Under the pieces are notes generated by a model. The model was not told the DNA's origin, made no database searches, and saw only the letters and a program-made list of their open reading frames with translations. From positions 1 through 38,630 of IMG/VR virus record IMGVR_UViG_3300025601_000826: a stretch of 38,630 nucleotides of DNA. One strand, 5' to 3'. Positions 2,553 to 31,754 of the stretch are shown here, piece after piece. Position 1 is the first letter of the stretch. The number at the start of each line of letters is the position of its first letter. A program made the translations under genes and the position numbers. This DNA comes from a virus.

Positions 2553-2560
2553 TATAAATA
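2553..2560 (+). promoter_or_regulatory. T4-type late promoter TATAAATA, before the dps-like gene
   Basis: A perfect match to the T4 late promoter box (recognised in T4 by gp55 with gp33 and the clamp). It lies 42 bases before the Dps-like start and would drive Dps plus the neck and terminase genes, which follow with little or no spacing. Confidence 0.7.
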
Positions 2561-2588
2561 GTACTAGTAATAAACACTAGTGCTATTT
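2556..2588 (+). terminator. Long hairpin overlapping the late promoter
   Basis: AAATAG-T-ACTAGT pairs with ACTAGT-G-CTATTT around the loop AATAAAC, giving a 13-pair stem with one G-T wobble, followed by TTATAT. It could terminate read-through from the fibre genes. Its left arm begins inside the TATAAATA box, so transcripts starting at that promoter would lack part of the stem. Confidence 0.5.
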
Positions 2589-2602
2589 TATATGGAGTCA
2601 GT

Positions 2603-3049
2603 ATGATGGTCGCTCAAAATTTAAAAGTTGTTCTTGCAACTACATTCACATTTTATCTCAAAGCACATAAGTTCCACTGGAATGTTATGGGGTCAGACTT
2701 TGCTCAACAACATGAGTTCCTTGGAGATCTGTGGGAAGAAACATTTGCTGCTATCGACCCTATTGCAGAAGCAATTCGCACACTTGGGGAGTTTGCTCCT
2801 GGATCACTTTCAGAGTTTATGGAACTATCATATGTCGAAGATAGTGTAGAAGATGTTTCTAATGGTCAGGTAATGTTCTCAACGCTTATTACCGACAATG
2901 AATTAGTTATTCAATCGTTAAATGAAGCATACGAAGTCTCAGAGTTAGATAAAACATTTGATGTCAGCGACTTACTTGCTCAAAGAATTAGCGCTCATAA
3001 AAAACACGGATGGATGCTGAATTCATTCCTAAGTAAACAACAAGGTTAA
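2603..3049 (+). CDS. dps: Dps/ferritin-like protein
   Basis: A 148-residue protein, close to the usual Dps length. It has the Dps signature KAHKFHWNVMG..F...HEFL.DLWEE....D.IAE.IRTLG. Aligned by spacing to E. coli Dps (H51, H63, D67, D78, E82), the ferroxidase residues correspond to H25, H37, D52 and E56; the D67 position is Gly41, with Asp42 next to it. The C-terminal DLLAQRISAHKKHGWML matches the last Dps helix. Dps dodecamers oxidise and store iron and protect DNA from oxidative damage. A late promoter lies upstream and the neck gene follows after 5 bases, so expression should be late. ATGs at 2603 and 2606 are both possible; GGAG at 2594 slightly favours the second. Confidence 0.85.
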   Translation: MMVAQNLKVVLATTFTFYLKAHKFHWNVMGSDFAQQHEFLGDLWEETFAAIDPIAEAIRTLGEFAPGSLSEFMELSYVEDSVEDVSNGQVMFSTLITDNELVIQSLNEAYEVSELDKTFDVSDLLAQRISAHKKHGWMLNSFLSKQQG

Positions 3050-3054
3050 TTCAC

Positions 3055-3804
3055 ATGGCACGCCCTAATTCAAGAGAAACCCTTATCGACTACTGCTTTC
3101 GTAGACTAGGTGCTCCGGTCATCGAGATCAACGTTGATGAAGATCAGGTAGAAGATCGCATTGACGATGCGATGCAGTTCTATCAAGAGTACCACAGTGA
3201 TGCAGTAGCAAAGGTATACCTTAAACACCAAATAACTACGATGGACAAAGAGAATGGATGGATTCCAGTTACAGATTCTACTATCTATGTAACTCGTATT
3301 CTGCCTGTTGCAAGCGCATTGTCATCAAGTAGTATGTTTAGCGCCAAGTACCAGATGTACCTGAACGACTTATATAACTTGAACTACATGGGTTCTATGA
3401 CAAACTATGTGCAAACGATGCAGTACATGTCTATGATCGATACTGTAATATCCGGTTCTGGTATGGAGATCACCTCTTTTAATAGAAACGCAAATAGATT
3501 GTTCCTACGCATAGACTGGAACGAAATTGAAGTTGGTGAGTATATTGTAGTGGAAGGTTATCAAATTATAGAACCCGCTTTGTTCTCAGATGTATATGAT
3601 GACATGTTTCTAAAAAAATATGCAACAGCACTTATCAAACAACAGTGGGGAACTAACTTAATCAAGTTCGACGGAATGCAACTTCCAGGCGGGGTTACCA
3701 TCAATGCTCGTCAAATATTTGATGATGCTACCACAGAGATAGAACAAATTAGAGAGCAGATGCAGCTTAGTTACGAAACGCCTCCAATGTTCTTTGTTGG
3801 TTAA
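3055..3804 (+). CDS. 13: Neck protein gp13
   Basis: The 249-residue product (MARPNSRETLIDYCFRRLGAPVIEINVDEDQVEDRIDDAM) is readily recognised as the T4 gp13 family of neck or head-completion proteins. In T4, gp13 joins gp14 at the portal vertex after DNA packaging, sealing the head and forming the platform for tail attachment. The N-terminal segment, with the Arg/Leu-rich start and the acidic VDEDQVEDRIDDA helix, is the family's most conserved part. Gene 14 follows 9 bases downstream, the T4 order. Confidence 0.9.
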   Translation: MARPNSRETLIDYCFRRLGAPVIEINVDEDQVEDRIDDAMQFYQEYHSDAVAKVYLKHQITTMDKENGWIPVTDSTIYVTRILPVASALSSSSMFSAKYQMYLNDLYNLNYMGSMTNYVQTMQYMSMIDTVISGSGMEITSFNRNANRLFLRIDWNEIEVGEYIVVEGYQIIEPALFSDVYDDMFLKKYATALIKQQWGTNLIKFDGMQLPGGVTINARQIFDDATTEIEQIREQMQLSYETPPMFFVG

Positions 3805-3813
3805 GGAGACCCA

Positions 3814-4851
3814 ATGCCAACAAGTGTTTATTTTGGTAATGGAACTAAAAGTGAGCAGTCACTATATGAAGACATTGTAGTAGAGTCGTTGAAGATTTAT
3901 GGGAACGATGTTACATATGTTCCCAGAAGATCAGTCCGTGATAATATTTTAAACGATGTAACATCTGGATTCTACGACTCGTATGCGGTTGAGATGTATA
4001 TTGAGAACAATGGTGGTTTCGAGGGAGACCAAACTTTGATGTCTAAGTTTGGTCTGGAGATACGCGACCAAGCAACATTCATTGTTGCTAGAAGAAGTTG
4101 GGAACGCTTTGTTGGAATTTTCAATAACGAGGTTAATAGTATTCGCCCACTTGAAGGCGATATTATTTACTATCCACTATCTAAATCGTTCTTTGAAATT
4201 AAATTCGTAGAACATCAGCAACCGTTTTATCAACTGAATAACCTCGTGGTATTCAAACTGCAATGTGAATTGTTTGAATACAGTAATGAGATCTTTGACA
4301 CAGGAAATCCTGACGTCGATGCTGTTCAAACATATAGTGCAGTATCAACAGTTATTAGAGTCGCGTTACCATATGATGATTCGGAACTTCTCGTGGGTGA
4401 GCAAATAGTTCAAGGCGTTGCAGACGGAATCTTTATAAATGCTGAAATCACCAATGTAGTTGTTGACAGTGAGGATCCTGCCAAGAGAATCGTTTGGTTA
4501 AGTAATATAACTTCTAGCGATGGTGAATGGCACGATATACTGAATAACTTTAGAATAGTTGGTCAGGCAAGTTTATCTAGTTGGTTGATTGATAGAATAT
4601 ATGATATTAATGATACTGACGTGAACTTTACATTCCCACAGAACTCTGCTCAAAACCAAGAATTCGAAATAGAAGCGGATGGTATCATGGACTTCAGTGA
4701 GGTTAACCCGTTTGGTGATCCAAACGACGGAAGATACTTTAGTATACCAGATAATATAGAATCTAATTCTATATCTGGAGCATTTACAGTTAACTCTACA
4801 AGTATCACAGTAGATAGCGTCCTGATAACATCAGACAAAACAATTTTTTAA
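3814..4851 (+). CDS. 14: Neck protein gp14
   Basis: A 345-residue protein starting MPTSVYFGNGTKSEQSLYEDIVVESLKIYGNDVTYVPR, the conserved opening of T4 gp14 relatives in marine phages. gp14 forms the lower neck ring that docks the contractile tail on the filled capsid. It is longer than T4 gp14 (about 256 residues), as is common in marine relatives. The start has a good ribosome site (AAGGAG, six bases before the ATG). It is co-transcribed with gene 13 and the following structural gene. Confidence 0.88.
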   Translation: MPTSVYFGNGTKSEQSLYEDIVVESLKIYGNDVTYVPRRSVRDNILNDVTSGFYDSYAVEMYIENNGGFEGDQTLMSKFGLEIRDQATFIVARRSWERFVGIFNNEVNSIRPLEGDIIYYPLSKSFFEIKFVEHQQPFYQLNNLVVFKLQCELFEYSNEIFDTGNPDVDAVQTYSAVSTVIRVALPYDDSELLVGEQIVQGVADGIFINAEITNVVVDSEDPAKRIVWLSNITSSDGEWHDILNNFRIVGQASLSSWLIDRIYDINDTDVNFTFPQNSAQNQEFEIEADGIMDFSEVNPFGDPNDGRYFSIPDNIESNSISGAFTVNSTSITVDSVLITSDKTIF

Positions 4852-4860
4852 GGATATATA

Positions 4861-5388
4861 ATGGCTAAACAAACTATATTTACCGGAAGTGTTTCTAACG
4901 ACGGCACTGGAGACCTATTGCGAGACGCATTTATTAAAGTTAACCAAAACTTCGACGAACTGTATGTAGAAAATTCTGGTGCTCATGATAGGTTCAATGT
5001 AGCATATGGTGGAATTAATTCTGTTCAAGCACTTGTTGATACGGTATTTTCATATAACTCAGTTCCGATAGAAGTATCTATTACAGTGACGAGCGAAATA
5101 TTCCCTAGATGCGAAGTTAGGTTAGCGGCGCCTCAAATTATTTTGGATGGTGTAACGAACGGACCCGTTATCATCCAACGAGTAATCGGCGCGACAATTA
5201 CAAACCTGCATGCTGTATCAGTTTCTAACATTGATAATAATTATCATGTAGTAATAGAAGATGAACATAATCAAGAGGCAGGGGTTGAAGTTACATATAG
5301 ACTTTATAATGGAACTTCAGTTGAACATGGTGGAACTATATACTTCCCAACTACATATGGATTTCAATTCGGATGTAAGGAAGTATAA
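4861..5388 (+). CDS. Structural protein of unknown function between genes 14 and 15
   Basis: A 175-residue protein whose N terminus, GSVSNDGTGDLLRDAFIKVNQNFDELY, carries the G(T)GD.LRDAF.K.N.NF.ELY motif. That motif is found at the start of many virion proteins in T4-like phages. The remainder is beta-rich with no catalytic signature. In several marine T4-like genomes an extra open frame occupies this place between 14 and 15, so a neck or virion decoration role is likely but unproven. Its stop codon overlaps the start of gene 15 by one base, suggesting translational coupling. Confidence 0.65.
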   Translation: MAKQTIFTGSVSNDGTGDLLRDAFIKVNQNFDELYVENSGAHDRFNVAYGGINSVQALVDTVFSYNSVPIEVSITVTSEIFPRCEVRLAAPQIILDGVTNGPVIIQRVIGATITNLHAVSVSNIDNNYHVVIEDEHNQEAGVEVTYRLYNGTSVEHGGTIYFPTTYGFQFGCKEV

Positions 5389-6347
5389 TGGTCGGAGAAT
5401 ATTTCTACCACTCATCTATTCGTAGGTTTGTAGCAGTATTTGGTTCTCTGTTTAACGACATCAAGGTTATTCATCAGAACGGTGCTCAACAGCGTGTACC
5501 TCTTTCATATGGGCCCAAGGATAAATTCCTTGCTAGGTTAGATGAACAAGTAGACTTAGAAGCACCAAAGGTTGCTATTAAATTACCTCGTATGTCGTTT
5601 GAAATATTAAACATGACATATGACACACAATCTAAATTGAATAGGAATAATAGAATCATTGTCGACGAAAGTGTATTATATACATATGCTCCATATAATA
5701 TATCAATGTCGTTGAGTATTATGGCTAAAACTCAAGACGATGCGCTTCAGATTATAGAACAGATCATTCCGTATTTTCAACCAGAATATACGGTTACTAT
5801 TAAAGAAGGTGTCTCTGACTTATTGAAAACAGATATACCTATTACACTAAATAGTATTGACATGACCGAAGATTATGAGGGTGACTTCATGAATAGGCGT
5901 GCTATAATATACACACTTTCGTTTGACGCGAAAGTGCGTTTCTACGGTCCTGTTTTGAGAACAGGAGTCATTAAGAAAGTTTCTGTTAGAACTATCGATA
6001 CAGAAAATACAAATAATCGCTATATGAGGCAAACTACTGCGGTTTCACCCAGTAGCGCTCAAGCTTCAGAAGATTATGAAATTATAGAAGACACCAACTA
6101 CCTTGATGTATCTTATGTATTATCATTAAGACTGTTTCCTGGAACTTATGGCGGTAACTTGGTTAATTATGTTGCTGGGGAAACCGTAACTGGGGCCAAT
6201 TCTAAGATTAAAGCAAAGGTGTTATCATGGAACCCAATATCTGAAGTTATCAACTTAGTCGATTTTGATGGAACTGAGTTTTATATCAACGAAACATTAT
6301 TAGGTTCTACTACTAACGCAGCTAGGTTGATTGAACAATTTATATAA
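5388..6347 (+). CDS. 15: Tail sheath stabiliser and completion protein gp15
   Basis: The 319-residue product begins MVGEYFYHSSIRRFVAVFGSLFNDIKVIHQNGAQQRVPLSYGPKDKFLARL. This is the conserved start of T4 gp15 relatives. In T4, gp15 forms the hexameric terminator ring at the head-proximal end of the tail and contacts gp3 and the sheath, then joins to the neck. The order 14, extra gene, 15, 16 is that of marine T4-like phages. The C-terminal part (GNLVNYVAGETVTGANSKIKAKVLSW) resembles an added beta domain, an observation from sequence only. Confidence 0.88.
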   Translation: MVGEYFYHSSIRRFVAVFGSLFNDIKVIHQNGAQQRVPLSYGPKDKFLARLDEQVDLEAPKVAIKLPRMSFEILNMTYDTQSKLNRNNRIIVDESVLYTYAPYNISMSLSIMAKTQDDALQIIEQIIPYFQPEYTVTIKEGVSDLLKTDIPITLNSIDMTEDYEGDFMNRRAIIYTLSFDAKVRFYGPVLRTGVIKKVSVRTIDTENTNNRYMRQTTAVSPSSAQASEDYEIIEDTNYLDVSYVLSLRLFPGTYGGNLVNYVAGETVTGANSKIKAKVLSWNPISEVINLVDFDGTEFYINETLLGSTTNAARLIEQFI

Positions 6348-6360
6348 ATCGGAATATATT

Positions 6361-6831
6361 ATGAGTGAAAAATCAAGCAAGTTATTAGAGGGATTGAGTA
6401 AAAACATTCCCGCTGAGGTTGTACAACGCAATGTAGTAGTTGCTCCTCCAAAGGAAGACACTTCTATACAAGAACTAGATGCAGACTATGAGTTCTCGCG
6501 TGAAAAATATAAAGATCTTGTTGATAAAGGTACTCTAGCAATAGACAGTATGATGGAACTTGCTTTACAAAGCGATCACCCCCGAGCGTTTGAAGTTCTT
6601 GGTGGTATGCTTAAACACGTTTCCGACATGACTGATAAACTAATGGTGCTGCATAACAATGTAGAGAAGATTAAAACCGTTAAAGAACAAAACAGTAATA
6701 CTCCGCAAGTTACATCATCAGGTGGATCAGTTACAAATAATGTATTTGTTGGTTCTACTACAGATCTACAACGGTTTATTATTGCCCAGCAGAAACAAAA
6801 TGTAATAGACGCAGATACGATAGAGGATTAA
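6361..6831 (+). CDS. 16: Small terminase subunit gp16
   Basis: A 156-residue largely helical protein, identified by position directly before the large terminase and by the central segment YKDLVDKGTLAIDSMMELALQSDHPRAFEVLGGMLK, typical of T4 gp16 relatives. gp16 forms rings that recognise DNA and stimulate the gp17 ATPase during packaging. I chose the ATG at 6361, preceded by GGA, over an upstream in-frame ATG at 6331 that would overlap gene 15. A short Gly/Ser-rich segment (TSSGGSVTNNVFVGS) links the helical core to the C terminus. Confidence 0.85.
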   Translation: MSEKSSKLLEGLSKNIPAEVVQRNVVVAPPKEDTSIQELDADYEFSREKYKDLVDKGTLAIDSMMELALQSDHPRAFEVLGGMLKHVSDMTDKLMVLHNNVEKIKTVKEQNSNTPQVTSSGGSVTNNVFVGSTTDLQRFIIAQQKQNVIDADTIED

Positions 6832-6833
6832 CA

Positions 6834-8441
6834 TTGCAGGTCACTAATAATCATTATGGATACCTCGGAAACCCTAACGTCAAACGCGATGGAGTAGAAC
6901 AACAGTTTACCCAACATGAGTTGTCAGAGTATATTCGTTGTATGAACGATCCAACATACTTTGCGTGTAAGTACATCAAGGTGATCAACTTGGACAAGGG
7001 TTTGGTTGACTTTGATTTGTATCCGTACCAAGAGAAGATGTTTAACCACTTCAACAAGAATAGGTTTTCTATCATTCTTGCTTGTCGACAGAGTGGAAAG
7101 TCTATCAGTTCTGTGGTGTATCTCCTATGGCATGCTATATTCAAACCAGAACAAACAATTGCGGTCTTAGCAAACAAGGGGTCTACTTCTCAAGAAATGC
7201 TTTCTAGGGTAACACTAGCATTAGAGAACCTCCCGTTCTTCCTTCAGCCAGGTTGTAAAGCACTGAACAAGAGGTCTATTGAGTTTAGTAATAACTCTAG
7301 GATTGTTGCTGCAGCGACCTCCGGTTCATCGATTCGTGGAATGTCGGTCAACTTATTGTTTTTAGATGAGTTTGCTTTCGTTGAAAATGATACAGCCTTC
7401 TACACCTCGACATATCCAGTTGTATCATCTGGTAAAACTACGCGAGTTATTATTACATCTACTGCGAATGGTATTGGTAACCAGTTCCACAAATTGTATG
7501 AAGGTGCTGTGCAAGGAACTAATGAGTTTAAATCTTTTCGTGTAGATTGGTGGGATGTTCCTGGTCGTGATGAAGAATGGAAGCGTCAGACTATCGCAAA
7601 TACTTCAGAGTTGCAGTTTGCCCAAGAATTTGGAAATACTTTCGCTGGTAACGGCAATACATTAATTTCTGCAGACTGTTTACTTTCATTAAAAGCACAT
7701 ACTGCGATACTTCAGCAAGCGGGCGTTAATGTATACGACAAACCAGAACAGGATCATCAATACCTAATGTTTGTAGACGTATCAAAGGGTCGTGGGCAAG
7801 ATTATTCTACCTTCAATGTTATTGACATTACTGCAAGACCGTTTAAGCAAGTCGCAACATTTCGCGACAATATGATATCACCCCTACTTTTTCCAGATGT
7901 AATTTATAAATGGGCAAACTATTATAACAAGACATTTGTTGTAATAGAGAACAACGACCAAGGTTCTGTTGTATGTAATGGGTTGTATTATGACCTAGAG
8001 TATGAAGAAACATTCATGTCCTCAGTAGTAAGGGCGGGTGACATTGGGGTTACTATGAACAAGAAGATCAAGCGCATAGGATGTTCTAACATTAAAGACT
8101 TGGTTGAGCAAGGTAAACTACACATAGTTGATCCAGAAACTATTATAGAAATGTCTACATTTGTTGCGAAGGGTAGTTCATACGAAGCAGATGGAAATGG
8201 CCATGATGACTTGATGATGAACTTAGTTTTATTTGGTTGGTATGCAACAACGCAGATGTTCTTAGACGAGACGGATATTAATGTAAGAGAATTGTTGTTT
8301 GCTGAGAAGATGAAAGCAATTGAAGATCAATTACTACCGTTTGGTATTATACACAATCATAACCCTGAAGACGATGTAGAGGTAGAAATAGTTAATGGTG
8401 ATAGATGGGTAACTGAGCCTGGTGGGACATTCGGACACTAA
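6834..8441 (+). CDS. 17: Large terminase subunit gp17 (packaging ATPase and nuclease)
   Basis: A 535-residue protein that pumps DNA into the prohead and cuts the concatemer. The ATPase domain has Walker A CRQSGKS (84-90), Walker B LLFLDEF (174-180) and coupling motif ITSTANG (207-213). The RNase H-like nuclease domain has MFVDVSKGRGQDYSTF (about 312-327), VVIENND and a late HDDLMMN acidic motif. The best start is TTG at 6834, two bases after gene 16, with GAGG at 6823-6826. The next in-frame ATG is at residue 37, inside conserved sequence. Confidence 0.95.
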   Translation: MQVTNNHYGYLGNPNVKRDGVEQQFTQHELSEYIRCMNDPTYFACKYIKVINLDKGLVDFDLYPYQEKMFNHFNKNRFSIILACRQSGKSISSVVYLLWHAIFKPEQTIAVLANKGSTSQEMLSRVTLALENLPFFLQPGCKALNKRSIEFSNNSRIVAAATSGSSIRGMSVNLLFLDEFAFVENDTAFYTSTYPVVSSGKTTRVIITSTANGIGNQFHKLYEGAVQGTNEFKSFRVDWWDVPGRDEEWKRQTIANTSELQFAQEFGNTFAGNGNTLISADCLLSLKAHTAILQQAGVNVYDKPEQDHQYLMFVDVSKGRGQDYSTFNVIDITARPFKQVATFRDNMISPLLFPDVIYKWANYYNKTFVVIENNDQGSVVCNGLYYDLEYEETFMSSVVRAGDIGVTMNKKIKRIGCSNIKDLVEQGKLHIVDPETIIEMSTFVAKGSSYEADGNGHDDLMMNLVLFGWYATTQMFLDETDINVRELLFAEKMKAIEDQLLPFGIIHNHNPEDDVEVEIVNGDRWVTEPGGTFGH

Positions 8442-8448
8442 CTAATTG

Positions 8449-8472
8449 TATAAATATGTAAAAGTATAAATA
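8449..8472 (+). promoter_or_regulatory. Two tandem T4-type late promoters before the sheath gene
   Basis: Perfect TATAAATA boxes occur at 8449-8456 and 8465-8472, sixteen bases apart. They lie 83 and 67 bases before the tail sheath start. The sheath and tube proteins are needed in high copy, which fits a doubled promoter. A further TATAAT at 8495-8500 has no acceptable -35 partner. Confidence 0.75.
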
Positions 8473-10239: not shown

Positions 10240-10767
10240 ATGGCAACTTTAGGCGTAGATGATTTCAAAGCTAAATTAATTGGCGGCGGAGCAAGACCTA
10301 ACCTTTTCAAAGCAACTTTAAACTTTCCAGCATACGCTGGTGGTAATGTTGAATTAACATCGTTCATGTGTAAGGCAGCACAACTACCAGGATCTATAAT
10401 CGCTCCGGTTGTAGTTCCTTTTAGAGGTAGACAGGTTCAGATCGCGGGAGATCGCACATTCGAACCTTGGTCAGTTACTATCATTAACGATAGTGGTATG
10501 GAAGTCCGCAATGCAATGGAGCGTTGGATGAATGGTATTAATTCTCACTCCCAGAATACCGGTCTCGCAAACCCATTGGATTATGTCGCGGACATGTCGG
10601 TAGAGCAGTTGAATAAGGCTGGCGATACCACTAAGACATACAACTTCCGCAGTGTATGGCCTTCAAACATCTCTGCAATCGAACTTTCTTACGAAAGTAA
10701 TGATCAGATTGAAGAGTTCACTGTTGAATTCCAAGTTACATACTGGGAGTCTAATACAACCAGCTAA
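10240..10767 (+). CDS. 19: Tail tube protein gp19
   Basis: A 175-residue protein of normal gp19 length. The pattern ...RPNLFKATLNFPAYAGG....FMCKAAQLPGSIIAPVVVPFRGRQVQIAGDRTFEPWSVTIIND is diagnostic of T4 gp19. It polymerises into hexameric rings forming the inner tail tube through which DNA passes. It sits 23 bases after the sheath gene, so the two share the tandem late promoters. A strong terminator follows it. A distant paralogue of the same fold appears at 15904-16425. Confidence 0.93.
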   Translation: MATLGVDDFKAKLIGGGARPNLFKATLNFPAYAGGNVELTSFMCKAAQLPGSIIAPVVVPFRGRQVQIAGDRTFEPWSVTIINDSGMEVRNAMERWMNGINSHSQNTGLANPLDYVADMSVEQLNKAGDTTKTYNFRSVWPSNISAIELSYESNDQIEEFTVEFQVTYWESNTTS

Positions 10768-15903: not shown

Positions 15904-16425
15904 ATGGCACTAGATACAAACATCAACCTATTAAGTCCCACTGGGTTTAAGATGATATTTTCGCGAGCTGACCTCAAAGGGTTAGAATTTTACCTACAGG
16001 CAGTAGACTTGCCTACAGTATCGGTTGGAGAAGCGAACTTATCTACTCCTAAGTTGAACATTATGCTTGGTGGTGATAAGTTGATGTTTGATCCGTTTAC
16101 TGCATCTATTCTATCAGATGAAAAGATGGACAACTTTGCATCCATATACAAGTGGTTGCAAGATACAGTCAACATTGATGACCCAAGCTCGCTAGTATGC
16201 GACGCGTCGTTGGTCATATTAAATAGTTCAAACAACCAGACCAGGACTATTGAGTTTAAGAACTGTTATCCAAACAGCATGTCAGGTATTGCTTTTGATG
16301 TTGGTGCTACAGAGGTACAGTACGCATCATTTTCGGTAACTTTTCGATACGACTACTATGTTGTTACTCCAGAGTTTGATACAGAAAAGTTCATGCGAAT
16401 TCCAGTGTCTTTACCAGTAACCTAA
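15904..16425 (+). CDS. gp19-like tail tube paralogue, at the gene 3 position
   Basis: A 173-residue protein with the gp19-type layout: LLSPTGFKMIFSRADLKGLEFYLQAVDLPTVSVGEANLSTPKLNIMLGGDKLMFDPFTASILSDEKMDNFASIYKWL, then VEVQYASFSVTFRYDYY-type closing strands (here ATEVQYASFSVTFRYDYY). In marine T4-like genomes the gene after 23 is usually annotated as gene 3, the tail tube terminator. That protein or a baseplate tube initiator (gp54/gp48-like) are both possible here. It is clearly distinct from gp19 at 10240 but shares its fold signature. The upstream late promoter fits a virion role. Confidence 0.65.
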   Translation: MALDTNINLLSPTGFKMIFSRADLKGLEFYLQAVDLPTVSVGEANLSTPKLNIMLGGDKLMFDPFTASILSDEKMDNFASIYKWLQDTVNIDDPSSLVCDASLVILNSSNNQTRTIEFKNCYPNSMSGIAFDVGATEVQYASFSVTFRYDYYVVTPEFDTEKFMRIPVSLPVT

Positions 16426-31246: not shown

Positions 31247-31723
31247 ATGACTTATCTAAATAGTCCACTCGGACACGACCTATTCGAACGCTCACGCAAA
31301 TATCACGTCGGCATCGAACAGCAACTAGATCGTATGTTACGCCAGGCGTCTACCGCCCAAGGCACTCTAACAACCAACTACCCTCCATACAATATCTATC
31401 GAGATGGCGACAACTATCGCGTAGAAATTGCCGTGGCTGGTTTTAAGAGAAGTGACATTGATATAGAACTAACTGAAAACATGTTGACCGTAACTGGAAA
31501 GATCGAGCAGAAAGGTGAAACTGTAGACGTCATTCATCGAGGCATCGCTTCTCGTGAATTTTCTCGTTCGTTTGTACTCGGTGAAAACATCATTGTTAAA
31601 GGTGCAGACCTACAGGATGGTATGTTGTTTATAGATATGGTTCATATCGTGCCAGAAGAAAAGAAACCTCGTAAGATTGAAATTGGTTTATCTGAAAATA
31701 AACCTGAATTATTGAACGAATAA
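31247..31723 (+). CDS. hsp20: Small heat shock protein Hsp20
   Basis: A 158-residue alpha-crystallin-type chaperone. The N terminus (LGHDLFERS) resembles IbpA-type proteins. The crystallin domain runs from about residue 45: YPPYNIYRDGDNYRVEIAVAGFKRSDIDIELTENMLTVTGKI, then HRGIASREFSRSFVLGENIIVKGADLQDGMLFIDM. The C-terminal K-I-E-I-G matches the I-x-I/V-type tail motif. Hsp20 genes are common in marine T4-like phages, where they may hold host or virion proteins soluble. It has an excellent ribosome site (AAGGAG). Confidence 0.93.
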   Translation: MTYLNSPLGHDLFERSRKYHVGIEQQLDRMLRQASTAQGTLTTNYPPYNIYRDGDNYRVEIAVAGFKRSDIDIELTENMLTVTGKIEQKGETVDVIHRGIASREFSRSFVLGENIIVKGADLQDGMLFIDMVHIVPEEKKPRKIEIGLSENKPELLNE

Positions 31724-31746: not shown

Positions 31747-31754
31747 TATAAATA
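31747..31754 (+). promoter_or_regulatory. T4-type late promoter TATAAATA after hsp20
   Basis: A perfect late box preceded by the palindrome GGGTTAACCC (31734-31743). It lies 65 bases before the 70-residue protein. In the leader, GGGACTG (31771-31777) and CAGTCCC (31788-31794) make a perfect 7-pair hairpin without a T tract, probably stabilising the mRNA. Confidence 0.7.

Follow-up and report, generated by a model that had tools for sequence, protein, structure and literature searches.

A Dps-type mini-ferritin gene behind a late promoter, directly ahead of gp13, in a T4-like environmental virus

Why should a virus with a T4-type block of neck and terminase genes carry a mini-ferritin gene directly in front of gp13? 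The question is raised by a stretch of viral DNA of 38,630 nucleotides (IMG/VR record IMGVR_UViG_3300025601_000826, positions 1 to 38,630; hereafter the window), in which the original prediction, made from the sequence alone, placed a Dps-like ferritin at 2553–3049. The features on which the analysis turns are the following.

2553..2560, + strand: T4-type late promoter TATAAATA (-10 element), exact match, 42 nt before the ATG
2556..2588, + strand: 13-bp hairpin with a loop of 7 nt, overlapping the late promoter
2594..2597, + strand: GGAG ribosome-binding site, read from the sequence, 5 nt before ATG 2603 and 8 nt before ATG 2606
2603..3049, + strand: Dps-type mini-ferritin ORF, 148 aa, pI 4.5
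3055..3804, + strand: gp13, head-tail adaptor (Ad2); phrog_211, E 1e-43
3814..4851, + strand: gp14, head closure/neck; PF11649, phrog_460
4861..5388, + strand: short protein with only the gp9/10 N-terminal domain, between gp14 and gp15; PF07880, E 1e-8
5388..6347, + strand: gp15, tail sheath stabilizer; phrog_227, E 2e-77
6331..6831, + strand: gp16, terminase small subunit; phrog_445, E 2e-36
6834..8441, + strand: gp17, terminase large subunit; phrog_5989 and phrog_2

The ORF encodes a real, conserved Dps protein of the ferritin fold. It matched the Pfam family PF00210 (Ferritin) at 71.9 bits (cut-off 24.5) and the PHROG profile phrog_3636 at 102 bits, and among the sequences of solved structures it matched 8ff9, the Pseudomonas aeruginosa Dps PA0962, at 88 bits. 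The AlphaFold monomer reached a pLDDT of 95.5, and Foldseek returned 8ff9 as the best solved structure (TM 0.91, rmsd 1.3), with 36% identity, a similar length and the same H-H-D-E residues. By Pfam match, pLDDT and TM score, the protein is thus a ferritin-like four-helix bundle of about 150 aa, as is typical of mini-ferritins, and the Dps-like ferritin of the original prediction was borne out, fold included. Its coordinates stood in part: Dps is present, and the gene begins at 2603, position 2553 being the first base of the promoter. The start codon lies in a pair, ATGATG, so that 2603 and 2606 are equally possible; 2606 is the start used in the homologue on the IMG/VR contig L005, a relative with 68% identity.

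The late promoter was found exactly as predicted. Perfect TATAAATA sites number six in the window against 2.9 expected, only modestly above chance, and this count alone is weak evidence. The placement of the six is not: all lie on the + strand and in intergenic DNA, which makes up 1,781 of the 38,630 bases (4.6%), and all read GTATAAATA, with a preceding G, 32–83 nt before a start codon. The same late-promoter sequence is used in T4, KVP40 and cyanophage (PMC2984593), and the Dps gene has it on its coding strand at the distance of T4 late genes (about 30–80 nt upstream). In L005, TATAAATA also stands 31 nt upstream of Dps. Late expression of the window Dps would be expected from this arrangement, and a promoter of this class leaves room for read-through from upstream, which may occur as well.

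The hairpin that overlaps the promoter was considered as a regulator of Dps and rejected, as it leaves the GGAG site uncovered and is not visible in L005. The region 2528–2620 folds with a z-score of -4.9, and the predicted late transcript, starting at about 2566, contains no 5' arm of the hairpin and folds like its own shuffles. Since the region upstream of Dps in L005 keeps TATAAATA and shows no comparable hairpin repeat, the hairpin is probably a local terminator, possibly for the tail-fibre unit that lies upstream, or a site of RNA processing.

Downstream, gp13 begins at 3055, five bases past the Dps stop at 3049, as originally described. The next perfect late promoters after 2553 stand at 8449 and 8465, ahead of gp18, and gp17 is the last gene before them. 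With no perfect site between Dps and gp18, Dps probably heads the gp13-14-15-16-17 operon, in keeping with the earlier view of a late neck and terminase operon, and the likely late transcript, as judged from the sequence, would run Dps-gp13-gp14-(gp9/10-N protein)-gp15-gp16-gp17. After gp17, the T4 module continues with gp18, gp19, gp20, gp21, gp22 (assigned by position), gp23, uvsY and uvsW. Two tail-tube-like proteins of the gp19 family are encoded in it, at 10240–10767 and 15904–16425; the second precedes uvsY, where P-SSM2 has its gp3 gene.

For the T4-like references that were compared, the remark that this module does not usually include Dps genes is correct. None of Cr30, DLP6, C48C1, Melnitz, HTVC008M, Mosig, S-SKS1, P-SSM2 and T4 has an annotated Dps gene directly before gp13; in phiN3, the place before gp13 lay outside the compared region. 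In INPHARED, 2,177 records match gp13, and the window Dps as query retrieved 14 records only, none of them T4-like by name or size; a more sensitive query (E 1e-3) retrieved 59 records, in which the only T4-like phage is S-SRM01 (two entries). Synechococcus phage S-SRM01 is a cultured T4-like phage of the Kyanoviridae with a Dps annotated as "DNA starvation/stationary phase protection protein"; in contrast to that of the window, its gene is very divergent and sits outside the structural module, some 66 kb away from gp13.

In environmental T4-like phages, however, Dps recurs at several slots of the module. At least 590 loci in IMG/VR encode Dps relatives, and the window Dps is a member of this large viral family, about which little has been described. 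Among the matches listed, the distinct sequences with flanks comprise 35 at the gp16/gp17 slot, ten next to the second tail-tube gene or uvsY, two before gp13 and 163 elsewhere. The two before gp13 are the window type and L005, so that the proposed survey of this site in relatives gave no annotated Dps in nine references and a Dps in L005 among the listed IMG/VR matches. The T4 gp23 was detected in 21 of 29 Dps-bearing contigs chosen for this search, mostly long ones with Dps elsewhere, and most of them are therefore T4-superfamily viruses. As a further observation, in loci of the L044–L079 type (e.g., L066:5042–6441) Dps comes right after a gene with a DUF6321 domain at its end (RKALALRKWNC); the N-terminal part of this gene is sometimes cytidyltransferase-like. 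On several of the large contigs, the DUF6321 match adjoins Dps or lies within a few kb of it.

Phage-encoded Dps proteins are known from other phage groups. The phrog_3636 Dps, the profile matched by the window protein, is found in phiEco32/7-11-like podoviruses (Salmonella 7-11, Aeromonas 4_4572), where the gene lies not in a late virion operon but among nucleotide-metabolism genes (thymidylate synthase, PhoH-like, DNA polymerase, and in Aeromonas 4_4572 also RNR). The Dps proteins of gut Gratiaviridae/Flandersviridae phages, another phage group, have been read as oxidative-stress proteins and proposed to ease iron and oxidative stress (PMC8008677). A similar relief was proposed for the Dps of Lactobacillus plantarum myophages (PMC6669764), which differ from the window in their phage group and in the location of the gene near replication genes. 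Within T4-like phages, a parallel in gene arrangement is the g15–g18 region of cyanomyoviruses, a known hypervariable site with cargo genes inside the late structural module (PMC2984593); in the window, by contrast, the cargo is Dps, its position is before gp13, and it has its own late promoter. The open-access literature yielded nothing on phage Dps in T4-like late modules.

The history of the gene was addressed with trees of gp13, gp17, uvsW and gp23. In those of gp17 and uvsW, C48C1 is one of the cultured phages nearest to the window, and neither INPHARED query, the window Dps or the more sensitive one, found a Dps in it. L005 joins the window and C48C1 in the gp17 tree, and the phages with Dps at the uvsY position join them in the uvsW tree, while the gp16/17-slot phages form a different group in the marker trees, barring one or two outliers. 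In the Dps tree, the window and L005 fall with the uvsY group (support 100/96; 96 in a larger tree), apart from the gp16/17 group. The Dps tree agrees with the marker trees. On the simplest reading, Dps would have entered late modules at least twice and moved once within the lineage of the window.

Viral Dps proteins, including that of the window, branch apart from the sampled bacterial ones such as PA0962. A split with support 100/96 sets them apart as one group from the 69 bacterial Dps sampled; in the larger tree with more viral sequences the bacterial sequences group together with weak support (63), and the bacterial sample for the trees consisted of the 80 best-scoring loci only. A recent capture from bacteria is not supported by this separation, and because the viral sequences are not nested inside the sampled bacterial Dps, the search for a donor by phylogeny named none. 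Among T4-like relatives, two other positional groups showed strong purifying selection, with dN/dS of about 0.04–0.2 in unsaturated pairs; the window Dps can be compared in this way with L005 only, and dS is saturated there.

The predicted conservation of H25, H37, D52 and E56 was confirmed. The four residues are invariant in an alignment of 38 viral and bacterial Dps, and their spacing is exact in 200 of the 208 distinct viral sequences among the matches listed. They correspond to H31, H43, D58 and E62 of the intersubunit ferroxidase site of Listeria Dps, in which H31, D58 and E62 are metal ligands (PMC8389677). Two differences from bacterial Dps, PA0962 included, were found around them. First, the position four residues after H37, where bacterial Dps usually have an acidic residue, is Gly41 in the window, at the place of the acidic residue near the second iron site of Listeria Dps (H43+4). 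Glu or Asp occupies this position in 60 of 79 bacterial sequences; in the viral ones it is acidic in only 18 of 200 and mostly Gly or Gln (viral figures among the matches listed). An acidic residue here is no strict requirement for a Dps, because bacterial Dps also do not have it universally. Second, His135 sits in a C-terminal H-x-K-H-x-W motif, the fourth position of which is His in 187 of 212 viral sequences among the matches listed and in 3 of 79 bacterial ones. A longer form, HKKHGWM, was dropped as a universal viral signature because AHKKHGWM had itself been a search pattern; looser patterns leave H-x-K-H-x-W as the stable part. Iron oxidation, called plausible in the original prediction, thus keeps its four ferroxidase residues, whereas the acidic residue at H37+4 is replaced by Gly, and since this residue is rarely acidic in viruses, ferroxidase activity could be altered.

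What the protein does for the virus is best explained by a soluble late Dps that detoxifies iron and protects the replicated DNA during packaging until lysis, a reading to which we give a probability of about 0.6. The direct basis of this reading is the fold, the ferroxidase residues, the promoter, the operon position, the purifying selection in relatives and the recurrence in late slots. The late promoter at 2553 would switch on Dps together with the neck and terminase proteins; the protein would be soluble and probably assemble into a 12-subunit cage, bind the Fe(II) freed in the late-infected cell, oxidise it with peroxide as the likely oxidant, and keep the oxidised iron as a mineral. The replicated DNA would thereby suffer less hydroxyl-radical damage while it is being packaged, and the cell would stay productive until lysis. 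Genes inserted in the equivalent slots of relatives also speak for this reading. Dps would probably be a cargo of the late operon, neither a virion part nor a DNA-binding protein. Late control of iron and peroxide is the most likely use because other phage Dps proteins have been read in this way and because an attacked host has been observed to respond in kind, YerA41 infection inducing host dps and catalase early (PMC7354516).

The original prediction also allowed for packaging of Dps, and it is possible to picture the protein as an internal head protein that guards the packaged DNA or, on injection, equips the next host to store iron or to resist oxidants. The shared operon with neck and terminase genes speaks for this. 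So does one relative, L280, whose Dps domain follows directly behind MKTFSKLQE-A, similar to the T4 internal-protein start MKTYQEFIAE-A, and the fold search shows that some larger viral proteins contain a Dps domain, three of them bearing the name "Prohead protease" by database annotation. T4 internal head proteins have an N-terminal targeting peptide ending in (L/I)xE; a motif scan found no N-terminal LxE site in the window Dps, whose first Glu is residue 38, although the gp23 of the window does carry the protease site at the expected place (QLNE-A). Moreover, the prohead would have to take in a folded cage, and among the viral loci inspected there is no clear fusion besides L280. Packaging of the window protein is accordingly unlikely, while in some relatives it is plausible, given L280 and the "Prohead protease" fusions. 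A general loading of mini-ferritin into the heads of environmental T4-like phages, where it would guard the packaged DNA or from which it would enter the next cell with or without iron, is likewise improbable; if true, these fusions would be the covalent form of the co-expression in the window phage. The L280 protein itself (L280:3626–5362) is a Lys/Arg-rich protein of 578 aa with the Dps domain at 118–263 and several (L/I/V)xE motifs, the first of which lies immediately before the Dps domain and resembles a T4 capsid-targeting peptide. A search for gp23 on this contig found none, and a Dps-protease fusion as a common form was discarded after two further scans showed no case besides L280.

Instead of a protector, Dps might be an iron store that feeds phage enzymes or iron sites of the virion, such as a tail tip of the "Ferrojan horse" type. 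Iron-enzyme genes do occur beside gp13 and gp16/17 in marine relatives (pelagiphages): beside gp13, 2OG-Fe(II) oxygenases and ferrochelatase are encoded in HTVC008M and Mosig, and the gp16/gp17 interval of HTVC008M contains genes for an oxygenase and a halogenase. Iron stored late in infection would nevertheless come after replication enzymes need it, no known iron-binding domain was found by Pfam in the tail fibre protein at 894, and the iron-release machinery that would be needed is not seen here, which makes this use quite improbable.

Binding of the replicated genome, another of the original suggestions, was rejected on charge and missing basic tails. In this alternative Dps would bind and compact, or physically shield, the replicated phage DNA as E. 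coli Dps does with the nucleoid. The family name and the PHROG label "DNA binding protein" favor it, but the label is an inherited annotation only. DNA binding is unlikely because the protein is acidic (pI 4.5; 9 basic versus 22 acidic residues, net charge about -13) and has no Lys/Arg-rich tail of the E. coli type at either end (N terminus MMVAQNLKVV, C terminus SKQQG), nor the extended tail of PA0962. Its viral relatives are acidic too (pI 4.5–5.8), and compaction could also hinder the terminase. Least credible of all is a nearly or wholly functionless passenger gene that came from a host not long ago and sits in a hypervariable slot, as the varied cargo in the gp13 and gp16/17 slots of relatives might suggest; it appears already largely refuted by selection and trees, given the strong purifying selection in relatives, the ferroxidase spacing kept in those 200 of 208 listed viral sequences, the viral clade apart from sampled bacterial Dps, and the retention of Dps by two T4-like lineages at different sites.

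Phage Dps as such is already known; what is new is that it heads a T4-like neck-terminase operon, recurs in late slots and has altered ferroxidase surroundings. So far it has been described as an occasional stress gene in the genomes of podoviruses and of gut and Lactobacillus phages. Among environmental viral contigs, many of which are T4-like, this fold is common, and at least two T4-like lineages hold Dps at different places within the late virion module. If Dps is indeed made late, selection would act on the control of free iron or peroxide during packaging and before lysis. With its altered ferroxidase site, the protein also provides a naturally occurring variant in which to study the chemistry of Dps.

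Two further loci place a Dps outside the 13–23 module: in L252 and L254, contigs that have genes in common with the window (h29216 homologue), it lies two genes before an Hsp20 gene. The window has its own Hsp20 small heat-shock gene (PF00011) at 31247–31720, upstream of DNA polymerase and followed by a perfect late promoter at 31747. At its other end, positions 1–870 contain repeat units of about 165 nt (QASD...DxFGxSV...GDTVVVGA) and resemble the gene of a beta-propeller repeat protein truncated at the window edge.
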